DNA from: Comamonadaceae bacterium
GTDB taxonomy: Bacteria > Pseudomonadota > Gammaproteobacteria > Burkholderiales > Burkholderiaceae_C
Direction of reading: 5' to 3'
DNA: 64,000 nt
Assembly: GCA_947372865.1 (NCBI GenBank)
Contig: CANBVJ010000002.1
Location: forward strand, 1-64,000
Shown: positions 25,257 through 30,855 of the stretch, piece after piece
Position numbering within the stretch: position 1 is the stretch's first letter
Layout of the letters: every line of letters begins with the position of its first letter
The notes under the pieces: generated by a model
Seen by the model: only the letters and a program-made list of their open reading frames with translations
Told to the model about the DNA's origin: nothing
Databases searched by the model: none
Position numbers and translations under genes: made by a program

Positions 25257-25769
25257 TTACTTGACGGCGGCCGAATTGAGAATTTTCAGTACTTTTTCGG
25301 TGATGTCATGCTTGGCGCTGCTGTAAACCACCTCCTGGATAACCAGGTCGTACTTTTCGTCTTCCGCCACTTTTTTGACGGCTTTGTTGGCTTTGTCCAG
25401 CACTTGTTGCAGCTCTTCGTTGCGGCGACCGTTCAGGTCTTCCTGGTATTCACGCTGCTTGCGTTGGAAATCGCGGTTGAGTTCGGCACCCTCTTTTTGG
25501 CGGCTAGCGCGTTGCGATTCGGTCATGGTGGGCGCGTCGCGTTCGAATTTTTCACTGAAATTTTTCAGCGCAGCCTGCAAATCAGCCAGTTCTTTTCCAC
25601 GTTTGGAAAACTCCTGCTCAAGCTTGGCCTGCGCCGCCTTGGCAATCACCGACTCGGTGGTGATGCGCTGGGTGTTGATGTAGCCAATTTTGGAATCCTG
25701 GGCCATCACGCCGGCACTCAAAGAGGCCAGCAACACGGCGACAGACGCCAGCTTGTGTGAGAGTTTCAT
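25257..25769 (-). CDS. skp: OmpH/Skp periplasmic chaperone
   Basis: Signal peptide, [14 protein letters not shown], coiled-coil, position between lpxD and bamA. Confidence 0.93.
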
Positions 25770-28066
25770 TAGAAAGAGGTTCCAATTTGAAATTGCAGTG
25801 ACTGCATTTTATCGCCATCGAACTTGGTGATGGGGCGCGCCACCGCAAGGCGCAGCGGCCCCACGGGGGAAATCCAGCTAATGCCGACGCCAAACGAGGA
25901 GCGCAGGTCGCCAAGCTGTATCGCCTCGTCGGCGCCGTAGATGCCGCCCGCGTCGACAAACCCGTACATGCGCAGCGTGCGGTCATTACCGCCACCGGGC
26001 AAGGGCGAGAGCACCTCGGCGTTGAACGTCAGCTTCTTGGCGCCACCCGTCGAGACGGCGCCCTGGGCGCGCTGGGTGCCGGTGGTCAGGCTGCCCTGCT
26101 CAAAACCGCGCACCGAACCCAAGCCGCCGGAATAGTAGTTCTTGAAGAGTGGATAGGCCTTGTCGGTCGTGGCAGCGCCCACCGAGAGTTCGCCGTTCAG
26201 GGCCAAGGTAACTTTCTTGCTCAGCGGAAAATACTGTTGCAACTGCGTGGTAGCGCGGGCGTACAGCAGCTCGCCAGCGATGCTCCACTCCCCGTTGGCC
26301 CGCAACAAGCGCCCGGAACTGGGAACCAATCCGCTGTCGCGGGTGTCACGCGCCCAGCCCACCGTCAAGGGAACAGCATTGGACGTGTAGCCAAACTGGT
26401 CGGCAAAGTCGCTGTAGGCCGTGGGCAGCAAGGTGCCGGGCACGATGGTGGTCCGGTCTGCACCAACACCAAAGTAGACGGTGTCGGTTTCGGTAAACGG
26501 AACCCCAAAGCGCACGCTCGCACCCATGGTTTCCAAAGAGTAGCTGTTCAGGTCCACATAGGGCTTGGTGGTGCGCTGGTAAACGTCGATGGTGCGCGAC
26601 ACGCCGTCATCGGTGAAATACGGGTTGGTGGTGTTGAACACCACGGTGCGGTTCAATTTGCTGGTGTTGAGCTCCACGCCCAGCGAATTACCCGAACCAA
26701 AAGCGTTGTCCTGCTTGAAGCCGAGTTGCAGGCCCAATCCATCGGCACTTGACACGCCAGCACCCAGACTCAGGCTACCCGTGGGTTTTTCTGCCACGGT
26801 CACGGTCAAATCCACCTGATCGGGGAATCCCGCCACCTCTTGGGTGTCGATGGCCACGTCTTTGAAATACCCCAGACGGTCCACCCGGTTGCGCGACTGG
26901 CGGATCTTGTCGCCGTCGTACCAGGCGGCTTCCAACTGGCGAAACTCGCGACGGATCACCTCGTCGCGCGTGCGGTCATTACCCGCCACGTTGATGCGGC
27001 GCACATAGACGCGGCGCGACGGATCGGCGCGCAGCGTCACTTCCACCCGGTTGGTCTTGCGGTCCAGGCTGGTAACAGGCTCCACTTGCGCAAAGGCAAA
27101 ACCGAAGTTGGCATAAAAATCAGTGAATGCCTTGGTAGTTTGGGCTACTTCGTTGGCGTTGTAGGGCTCGCCCACCTGAATGGCAACGAGCGACTGGAAC
27201 TCAGCCTCTTTGTCCAAAAAGTTGCCCGCCAGCTTGACTTTGGAGACGACAAAGCGCTCGCCCTCGGTCACGTTGATGGTGATGCTGATGTCTTGCTTGT
27301 TGGGCGAAATCACAACCTGGGTTGAGTCAACGGCAAACTCAAGGTAGCCGCGCGACAAGTAGTAGGAGCGCAGAGTCTCCACATCGGCGTTGAGCTTGCT
27401 GCGCACATAGCGGTCCGACTTGGTGTACCAGCTCAACCAGCCGCCGGAGTCCGAGTCAAACAGGCCCAAGAGCGCGTTTTCAGAAAAAGCCTTGTTGCCG
27501 ACGATGCGAATACTTTTGATCTTGGCCGTGTCGCCCTCGCTTACGGCAAAGCTCAGGTTCACCCGGTTGCGCTCGATGGGGGTGACGGTGGTGACGACCT
27601 CTGCGGCATACATGCTGCGGTTGATGTACTGGCGCTTGAGTTCCTGCTCAGCCTTGTCGGCCAAGGCCTTGTCAAACGGACGGCCATCGGCCAGACCAAT
27701 GTCCTTGAGCGCCTTGACCAGCACGTCCTTGTCAAATTCTTTGGTGCCGGTAAAGCTCACTTCGGCCACGGTGGGGCGTTCTTGCACTACGACGATCAGC
27801 ACCTTGTCCTGCACATCAATGCGCACATCGTTGAACAAACCCAGACCAAACAGGGCGCGAATCGAAGCACCAGCCTTGTCGTCGCTATAGGTATCGCCAA
27901 TGCGCACCGGAATGGAGCCAAACACGGTGCCGGCTTCGACCCGCTGCAGGCCTTCGACACGGATGTCTTCCACTGTGAAAGGCGTCACCGCCCAGGCAGC
28001 GTGCGCTAGCGAAAAGGCCAGGACGGCGGCAATCAGACGGAAAAAGTGCATAAACGCGAGGGGCAT
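25769..28066 (-). CDS. bamA: Outer membrane protein assembly factor BamA
   Basis: POTRA repeats (FTVEDIRVEGLQRVEAGTVF...), C-terminal Omp85 barrel ending QFQIGTSF. ORF opens at 28147; start at MPLAFMHFFRLIAAVLA more likely. Confidence 0.96.
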   Translation of the reverse strand: MPLAFMHFFRLIAAVLAFSLAHAAWAVTPFTVEDIRVEGLQRVEAGTVFGSIPVRIGDTYSDDKAGASIRALFGLGLFNDVRIDVQDKVLIVVVQERPTVAEVSFTGTKEFDKDVLVKALKDIGLADGRPFDKALADKAEQELKRQYINRSMYAAEVVTTVTPIERNRVNLSFAVSEGDTAKIKSIRIVGNKAFSENALLGLFDSDSGGWLSWYTKSDRYVRSKLNADVETLRSYYLSRGYLEFAVDSTQVVISPNKQDISITINVTEGERFVVSKVKLAGNFLDKEAEFQSLVAIQVGEPYNANEVAQTTKAFTDFYANFGFAFAQVEPVTSLDRKTNRVEVTLRADPSRRVYVRRINVAGNDRTRDEVIRREFRQLEAAWYDGDKIRQSRNRVDRLGYFKDVAIDTQEVAGFPDQVDLTVTVAEKPTGSLSLGAGVSSADGLGLQLGFKQDNAFGSGNSLGVELNTSKLNRTVVFNTTNPYFTDDGVSRTIDVYQRTTKPYVDLNSYSLETMGASVRFGVPFTETDTVYFGVGADRTTIVPGTLLPTAYSDFADQFGYTSNAVPLTVGWARDTRDSGLVPSSGRLLRANGEWSIAGELLYARATTQLQQYFPLSKKVTLALNGELSVGAATTDKAYPLFKNYYSGGLGSVRGFEQGSLTTGTQRAQGAVSTGGAKKLTFNAEVLSPLPGGGNDRTLRMYGFVDAGGIYGADEAIQLGDLRSSFGVGISWISPVGPLRLAVARPITKFDGDKMQSLQFQIGTSF

Positions 28067-28143
28067 GGTGAAAACTCGATTGACAAGGCGCAAATTCAAA
28101 ATCAGCTGTGGTGCCCAAGACTGGCGTTTGGCAGCGAGCGCCA

Positions 28144-29352
28144 TCATAACGAGGATGGGGACAGACGTTGCACCAGGGCTTGCGCAAGCCTGCGGGCTTG
28201 GCTGTCGACCGCCAGCAGATCCGCCAGCGATCCTGGTGCGTCAGGAAGGTAGCCTGCCAGGCATTCGGTGTTGACGGCATGAATCTGGTCAAAACGGATG
28301 CGGCGGTCCAAAAATGCGGCCACGGCCACTTCGTTGGCAGCATTTAACACTGCGGTGGTACCGGGCGGCGCAGCCAAAACGTCCCAGGCGAGTTGCAAGC
28401 CAGGAAAGCGCGTAGCGTGGCCCTGCGTGGCAATGGGCTCAAAACTGAGCGCCGCCATGGAGGAAAAGTCCAGAGCGCTGGCGCCGCTGGTGCGCCGCGT
28501 GGGCCAGGACAGGCCGTAGCCGATGGGCCCGCGCATATCGGGCGTGCCCAGTTGCGCCACCACCGAGTGGTCCACGAACTGCACCATGGAATGCACCACG
28601 CTTTGCGGGTGGATGATGACTTCAATCGCCGACGGCGCCACGCCAAACAGAAACTTGGCTTCAATCACCTCCAGGGCCTTGTTCATCATGGTGGCCGAAT
28701 CGACAGAAATCTTGCGGCCCATGACCCAATTCGGGTGGGCGCAAGCTTCTTCCGGGCTGATGGAGGCAAAAGTGGCGGGGTCGCGGGTGCGGAACGGGCC
28801 GCCGGATGCGGTCAGGATGATTTTGTGGATCACTTCGGGCCAGCTGTCCGGGTCTTCGGGCAGCGACTGGAAGATGGCTGAGTGTTCGCTGTCAATAGGC
28901 AGCAAGGTGGCCCCACCCCGGCGCATCGCATCCATGAAAAACGCCCCACCCACCACCAGCGCCTCTTTGTTGGCTAGCAACAAACGCTTGCCCGCCAGCG
29001 CAGCCGCAATGCACGAGGCCAGCCCAGCGGCGCCCACAATCGCGGCCATCACGGTAGTGACTTCTTCGTGCGCCGCAACCCATTCCAGTGCCGAAGCGCC
29101 CCAAAGCACTTCGGTGGGCAAACCCAGTTCGGTCAGCGTGCGTTTGAGCTCGCGCCCGTGCCATTCGCTCACCATCACCGCAAAACGGGGGCGAAACTGC
29201 ACGCACTGCGCGGTCATCAATTCGAGTTTGCTGTGGGCGCTGAGCGCGAACACCTCGTACCGCTCCGGGTGGCGCTGCATGACGTCCAAGGTATTGACGC
29301 CAATGGAGCCCGTTGAGCCCAGCACGCTAACGCGTTGGATGGCAGAGTTCAT
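28144..29352 (-). CDS. dxr: 1-deoxy-D-xylulose 5-phosphate reductoisomerase
   Basis: MNSAIQRVSVLGSTGSIGVNTLDVMQRHPERYEVFALSA, LPIDSEHSAIFQ. Confidence 0.97.
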   Translation of the reverse strand: MNSAIQRVSVLGSTGSIGVNTLDVMQRHPERYEVFALSAHSKLELMTAQCVQFRPRFAVMVSEWHGRELKRTLTELGLPTEVLWGASALEWVAAHEEVTTVMAAIVGAAGLASCIAAALAGKRLLLANKEALVVGGAFFMDAMRRGGATLLPIDSEHSAIFQSLPEDPDSWPEVIHKIILTASGGPFRTRDPATFASISPEEACAHPNWVMGRKISVDSATMMNKALEVIEAKFLFGVAPSAIEVIIHPQSVVHSMVQFVDHSVVAQLGTPDMRGPIGYGLSWPTRRTSGASALDFSSMAALSFEPIATQGHATRFPGLQLAWDVLAAPPGTTAVLNAANEVAVAAFLDRRIRFDQIHAVNTECLAGYLPDAPGSLADLLAVDSQARRLAQALVQRLSPSSL

Positions 29353-29365
29353 GGTGATATCTGGC

Positions 29366-30211
29366 CTACAAGGTGCACAACAACATGGCCAGGGGCAAGA
29401 CGGGCAAGAGCGCGTCAATGCGGTCCAGCACGCCACCATGGCCCGGCAGCAAGACGCCGCTGTCTTTGACGCCTGCGGCGCGTTTGAACAAAGACTCCAG
29501 CAAGTCGCCCACCACGCCCATGGTGGTCAGGAAAATCACCGAAACTGTCAAAAACAAAGGATTCACACTAACCAGGCGGCTGTACAAACTTCCCCCCGGC
29601 GTAACACCAGCCACGTCAAGCGCGCGCCAGGCAAAGGCCATGCACAACACGCCCACCATGGCGCCTGCCACGCCTTCCCAGGTTTTGCCCGGGCTGATGC
29701 TGGGCGCTAGCTTTTGCCTGAAAAACCGCCCGCCCAGGGCCCGACCGGAGAAATAAGCAGCTACGTCAGCCACCCACACCAGCAACAAGACCGAAAACAG
29801 AAAATCAATGCCCACCAGCCGCGCCTGCACCAAGGCCAACCAGGCCGCGCACAACAGCGCCACGCCGCCAAGCCAGCGCAAAAACAGGGGCTGGGGTAAC
29901 CACACAGCCACCCCGGCACGCAAGAGCCACAGTGCCAGCCCTACCCAGGCCGCGCCCGCCAGAAACCACACCCACGGCAAGGCGCTTGCCGCCAGGCCAC
30001 TCACCCAGAGCGCGCCGCACAGACCCGCGCACAGTGCGGCAGTGGCCAAAGAAGCCGCAGCCGCAAGTCCGTTCAGACGCGCCCACTCCCAGCCGCCCGC
30101 GCCCATGAGGAGCACAGTCAGAACAACAAAACCCAGGGGATTGGTGGCCAGCACCGCCGGCACCAGCAAGGCCAGCAGGACGATGGCCGTCAGAATTCTT
30201 TGCTTAAGCAT
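29366..30211 (-). CDS. cdsA: Phosphatidate cytidylyltransferase
   Basis: C-terminal SISPGKTWEGVAGAMVG...GDLLESLFKRAAGVKDSGVLLPGHGGVLDRIDAL signature. Confidence 0.96.
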   Translation of the reverse strand: MLKQRILTAIVLLALLVPAVLATNPLGFVVLTVLLMGAGGWEWARLNGLAAAASLATAALCAGLCGALWVSGLAASALPWVWFLAGAAWVGLALWLLRAGVAVWLPQPLFLRWLGGVALLCAAWLALVQARLVGIDFLFSVLLLVWVADVAAYFSGRALGGRFFRQKLAPSISPGKTWEGVAGAMVGVLCMAFAWRALDVAGVTPGGSLYSRLVSVNPLFLTVSVIFLTTMGVVGDLLESLFKRAAGVKDSGVLLPGHGGVLDRIDALLPVLPLAMLLCTL

Positions 30212-30294
30212 GGCGTGCATGCGGCCCGCACAGGGCGGGATCAAGCGAATACAACAGGAAAATAAAGGCGTGAGACATAGCGGAGCAAAGGCCG

Positions 30295-30855
30295 CTAGAC
30301 CGCCATGATGTCCTGCTCTTTGGCCGCCACCAGACGGTCGACTTCAACGATGTAGCGGTCGGTTAGCTTCTGGATGTCGGCCTCGGAGCGCTTTTGCTCG
30401 TCTTCGGACACCAGCTTTTCTTTTTCGAGCTTTTTGACGGCTTCATTGGCATCACGGCGCAGGCTGCGAACCGCCACTTTGGCGCCCTCGCCTTCGCTGC
30501 GCACCACCTTGGTCAGCTCGCGGCGGCGCTCTTCGGTCATCACCGGCATGGGCACGCGGATCAGGTCGCCCATGCTCGACGGATTGAGGCCCAGATCGCT
30601 CTCCCGAATGGCTTTTTCAATCTTGGCGCCCATGTTTTTTTCCCAGGGCTGGATGCCCACGGTGCGCGAATCAATCAGCGACAAATTGGCCACCTGGCTC
30701 AGGGGCACCATGGAGCCGTAGTAGTCCACGTGCACGTTGTCGAGCAATGCGGGGTTGGCACGTCCGGTGCGGACTTTGCCCAGATTGTTCTTGAAGGCGG
30801 CGATGGACTGCTCCATCTTGCCTTCGACGTTGTTTCTGATTTCTTGGATAGCCAT
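30295..30855 (-). CDS. frr: Ribosome recycling factor
   Basis: [33 protein letters not shown]. Confidence 0.97.

Follow-up and report, generated by a model that had tools for sequence, protein, structure and literature searches.

Recurrent loss of rseP between dxr and bamA accompanies excision of rpoE-rseA-rseB in Comamonadaceae

Escherichia coli cannot grow without rseP, degS, and rpoE, a requirement that is bypassed at reduced outer-membrane protein load (PMC12421810). A 64,000-nucleotide stretch of a Comamonadaceae draft genome (the window) appears to lack the first of these genes at its customary site between dxr and bamA. This locus raises two questions: whether rseP has truly been lost, and what could have made such a loss tolerable.

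The minus strand of the window carries, in order, rpsB, tsf, pyrH, frr, cdsA, dxr, bamA, skp, lpxD, fabZ, lpxA, lpxB, and rnhB. The DXP reductoisomerase gene dxr (28144–29352) ends in a TGA at 28146–28144, and an ATG at 28066 begins the signal peptide of BamA (Omp85; 25769–28066). Both flanking genes are intact; dxr matches PF02670, PF08436, and PF13288 over their full length, and bamA encodes five POTRA stretches and a complete Omp85 domain. Beyond them lie skp/ompH (25257–25769), which follows bamA, and, on the other side, cdsA (29366–30220) and frr (30295–30855), all on the minus strand; cdsA is an open reading frame whose homologues occupy the same position in relatives. What separates dxr from bamA is a spacer of 77 bp (28067–28143, minus strand), exactly where relatives carry an rseP of ~455 aa. 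The original prediction that rseP is absent here, with about 77 bp left, was borne out: at a threshold of E 1e-3, the dxr-bamA interval gave no RseP match, either in the window or in the 19 relatives without RseP that we examined, and the 77-bp spacer contains no trace of an rseP remnant. It took 28066 as the likely bamA start but also had an ATGATG at the dxr stop open the bamA frame. A 792-aa frame does run from this point into bamA, but it breaks in the close relatives L145 and L147, so we rejected a BamA N-terminal extension and regard 28066 as the likelier start.

We surveyed 72 genomes, each at least 85% complete, from the window's genus, which we take to be GTDB Rhodoferax and which includes a small-genome freshwater clade. 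The assignment follows from Rhodoferax lacus (L112, G153), whose RseP lies at contig coordinates identical to those in G063, a genome of this genus. RseP is absent in 22 of these, and in 20 of the 22, including the window's genome, bamA directly follows dxr on one contig; the remaining two are G005, where a contig ends, and G084, in which no dxr was found. The gap in the RseP-less genomes measures 51–149 bp, except in G062, where it is 342 bp. Named Limnohabitans loci, among them that of the isolate MMS-10A-192, share the rseP-less junction. The original prediction could have been undone by an arrangement without rseP ancestral to the whole family; comparison of synteny across Comamonadaceae instead showed that most loci place an rseP of ~455 aa between dxr and bamA. 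Sampling 24 further families across the order likewise gave a PF02163 match at RseP level in every one (that of G042 being a contig fragment). Because RseP is found in most other Comamonadaceae and in all of these families, the rseP-less junction is derived.

The search for rseA and rpoE proposed with the original prediction showed that both, together with rseB, are absent genome-wide from the window's genome. Across the genus, RseA_N, RseB, and RpoE occur as a set: 39 genomes have all three, and the other 33 have none (the RpoE count involves two genes cut at contig ends and three scoring just below the cut-off). Both RseP and this sigma-E module are missing from 21 genomes and both are present in 38; 12 retain RseP alone, and one, G062, retains sigma-E alone (Fisher p = 8e-9, uncorrected for relatedness). 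Fifty named genomes, a set that overlaps the genus set in part and in which RseB served as the sigma-E marker, fall into the corresponding categories as 14 lacking both, 16 with RseP alone, 20 with both, and none with sigma-E alone (Fisher p = 2e-4, relatedness ignored). Sigma-E is thus absent from 35 of 36 RseP-less entries (14/14 named and 21/22 genus, the sets partly overlapping).

The module has been removed with precision. Genomes that possess it have the order fabG-fabF-hyp-rpoE-rseA-rseB-mucD-lepA. In the window's genome and 16 other sigma-E-less genomes, only rpoE-rseA-rseB are missing, with fabF, mucD, and lepA retained; this count covers fetched loci that reach fabF and leaves out G005 and G093, whose contigs end inside mucD. 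The window's genome has an intact fabF-hyp-mucD-lepA junction, and the same exact excision is found in the closed genome G083 and the isolate G129. At the excised locus, hyp is present in all but the three loci on the Limnohabitans side.

A quickly built tree of Dxr and BamA (95 rows, with a long-branch flag on G062 and a long branch for G093 as well) requires four changes in RseP and nine in sigma-E. RseP-less members form a window clade (22 rows, support 97), a Limnohabitans subclade (5 rows, support 100), and the single genomes G093 and G062, and a single origin of the loss is rejected (AU p = 9e-84). Loss of RseP is therefore clade-wide and recurrent, and it is accompanied by excision of rpoE-rseA-rseB. 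The order of events can be read in Limnohabitans, where the five RseP-less rows are nested within a 14-row clade (support 96) that lacks sigma-E throughout, indicating that sigma-E was lost before RseP. RseP and sigma-E are both absent throughout the window's own clade, in which sigma-E presumably also went first. A tree-based independent-pairs test of RseP against sigma-E had only four independent losses to draw on and was without power.

We consider it probable that loss of sigma-E and RseA rendered RseP dispensable and that streamlining then deleted rseP. Under this model, the first event would have been the excision of rpoE-rseA-rseB from the interval bounded by fabF(-hyp) and mucD, which left the periplasmic protease MucD in place. 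Deprived of RseA, its main client, RseP would no longer have been needed to free sigma-E by intramembrane proteolysis. Finally, rseP would have been deleted cleanly from between dxr and bamA in the ancestor of the clade, a change either neutral or favored by streamlining. The causal step would run from loss of RseA and sigma-E to dispensability of RseP, and other tasks of RseP, such as signal-peptide clearance and the processing of other anti-sigma factors, would have to be dispensable or taken on by other proteases. Loss of sigma-E is not sufficient, since 12 sigma-E-less genus genomes keep RseP; these may retain it for other clients, for example FecR-type anti-sigma factors.

An alternative is that general streamlining removed rseP and rpoE-rseA-rseB separately and that their association reflects nothing but small genomes. 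Size is indeed a confounder, as RseP-less genus genomes are mostly 2.2–3.6 Mb and most others about 4 Mb, and uppS has moved as well. We nevertheless judge unlinked loss unlikely: a genome of only 2.2 Mb (G094) has RseP, one of 4.6 Mb (L095/G143) lacks both RseP and sigma-E, and the absence of sigma-E from 35 of 36 RseP-less entries, in partly overlapping sets, speaks for a connection. The original prediction had grouped uppS with rseP as lost from the cluster, by streamlining or relocation. Both are gone from it, with uppS missing at the frr-cdsA junction (30221–30294, minus strand), but the two alternatives apply to different genes: rseP is lost, whereas an intact uppS lies on another contig (C24:6328–6984, 268 bits; locus L173, C24:6283–7113). 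This copy shares only 43–52% identity with the uppS that relatives carry in the cluster and is possibly a replacement from elsewhere. In Limnohabitans-type loci, uppS is likewise not in the cluster. The link between rseP loss and the uppS move is weak, because a sister subclade (G085, G073, G101, and G095) lacks rseP and keeps uppS in the cluster.

A further alternative is that RseP relocated or was replaced by another site-2 protease. In the window's genome (G000; a draft of 3.0 Mb, 84 contigs, and 95.6% completeness), the genome-wide search suggested with the original prediction returned no RseP: the profile TIGR00054 gave no matches, and PF02163 matched a single 233-aa frame on contig C10. 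This sole match carries the HExxH and LDGG catalytic motifs (ITLHEAAHG, PPLDGG); it is not, however, a full-length protein in which PDZ domains separate the two catalytic halves, and it has no TIGR00054 match. Equivalent short M50 frames occur in most RseP-positive relatives and in G062, so the protein was not acquired with the loss of RseP. It is thus not RseP, nor was it gained as a stand-in, and we regard relocation or replacement as very improbable. An assembly or binning artefact at the junction, conceivable in a draft of this kind, has a negligible chance of being the explanation and is refuted for the clade, because the junction recurs in 19 further genomes of the genus and in named loci that were assembled separately, among them the 20-contig G035 and the isolate Limnohabitans MMS-10A-192.

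G062 is the exception to sigma-E loss as the setting for RseP loss. Its rpoE-rseA-rseB-mucD module is intact (L161, L165, L166), and it has no RseP; because the genome is a single closed 4.74-Mb contig, a missed contig is unlikely. Loss of sigma-E is therefore not strictly required for loss of RseP, and release of sigma-E from RseA in this organism would need another route, such as another protease or constitutive leak. That G062 runs an RseP-independent sigma-E pathway strikes us as doubtful, though conceivable.

Several genomes carry altered copies of rseP, and those of L062, L101, L111, and L063 look like intermediates that support the proposed model. The sigma-E-less Limnohabitans relatives L062 (7189–8301), L101 (7186–8295), and L111 (1165–2274) encode a shortened RseP of 370–371 aa with HEYGH and LDGG; a Pfam scan detected one PDZ stretch in that of L101 versus two in L085. 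The rseP of L063, also sigma-E-less, is frameshifted. More broadly, faster divergence of RseP after sigma-E loss was not seen, the RseP/Dxr identity ratio being 0.79 in sigma-E-less genomes versus 0.81, so general relaxation is not evident. Separately, rseP is split across two frames in a sigma-E-positive draft (L065:7201–8435; G074/G125), possibly through sequencing error or as a recent pseudogene. In one small sigma-E-less genome, RseP (L200; G029:C58:168–878) is cut short by the end of a contig, and the remaining half contains one in-frame TAG; this copy may be decaying.

The junction left by the deletion has a feature of its own. A -10-like box, CGTTATGATGG (28141–28151, minus strand), is conserved across the RseP-less window clade, in which the spacer of every dxr-bamA locus read contains TAT(G/C)ATG. 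The box reads TATCATG in a sister subclade, and the remainder of the spacer diverges across the clade; RseP-positive loci give only scattered matches (L019, L060, L185, and L186). It is a possible but unproven bamA promoter, and this remains a suggestion because no match to the full sigma-70 consensus was found in the spacer.

These lineages are natural, free-living bacteria, including the cultured Limnohabitans MMS-10A-192, that lack RseP and the sigma-E module. They allow one to ask whether the essential role of RseP is sigma-E activation only or extends to housekeeping such as signal-peptide clearance, with sigma-E-less, RseP-positive relatives as the matching control. A literature search that covered at most a minority of subscription journals found no paper mentioning RseP alongside Limnohabitans or Rhodoferax. 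Relatives conform to the known RseP/sigma-E pathway, with rseP between dxr and bamA and rpoE-rseA-rseB-mucD before lepA, whereas the window clade lacks all four signaling genes and retains mucD and bamA. According to PMC12421810 and its citation of Douchin et al. 2006, RseP essentiality in E. coli is suppressed by loss of OmpA and OmpC, or of cardiolipin and OmpC. Such suppressor cells live without RseP when sigma-E no longer has to be activated, and the lineages described here probably do likewise; unlike those laboratory mutations, whole natural lineages here lack both RseP and rpoE-rseA-rseB. The case also resembles other essential genes that some taxa lack, a matter of compensability (PMC3386227), in that E. 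coli depends on a gene that is missing elsewhere. It differs in that a single genus here displays what probably enabled the loss, namely the disappearance of the client pathway.
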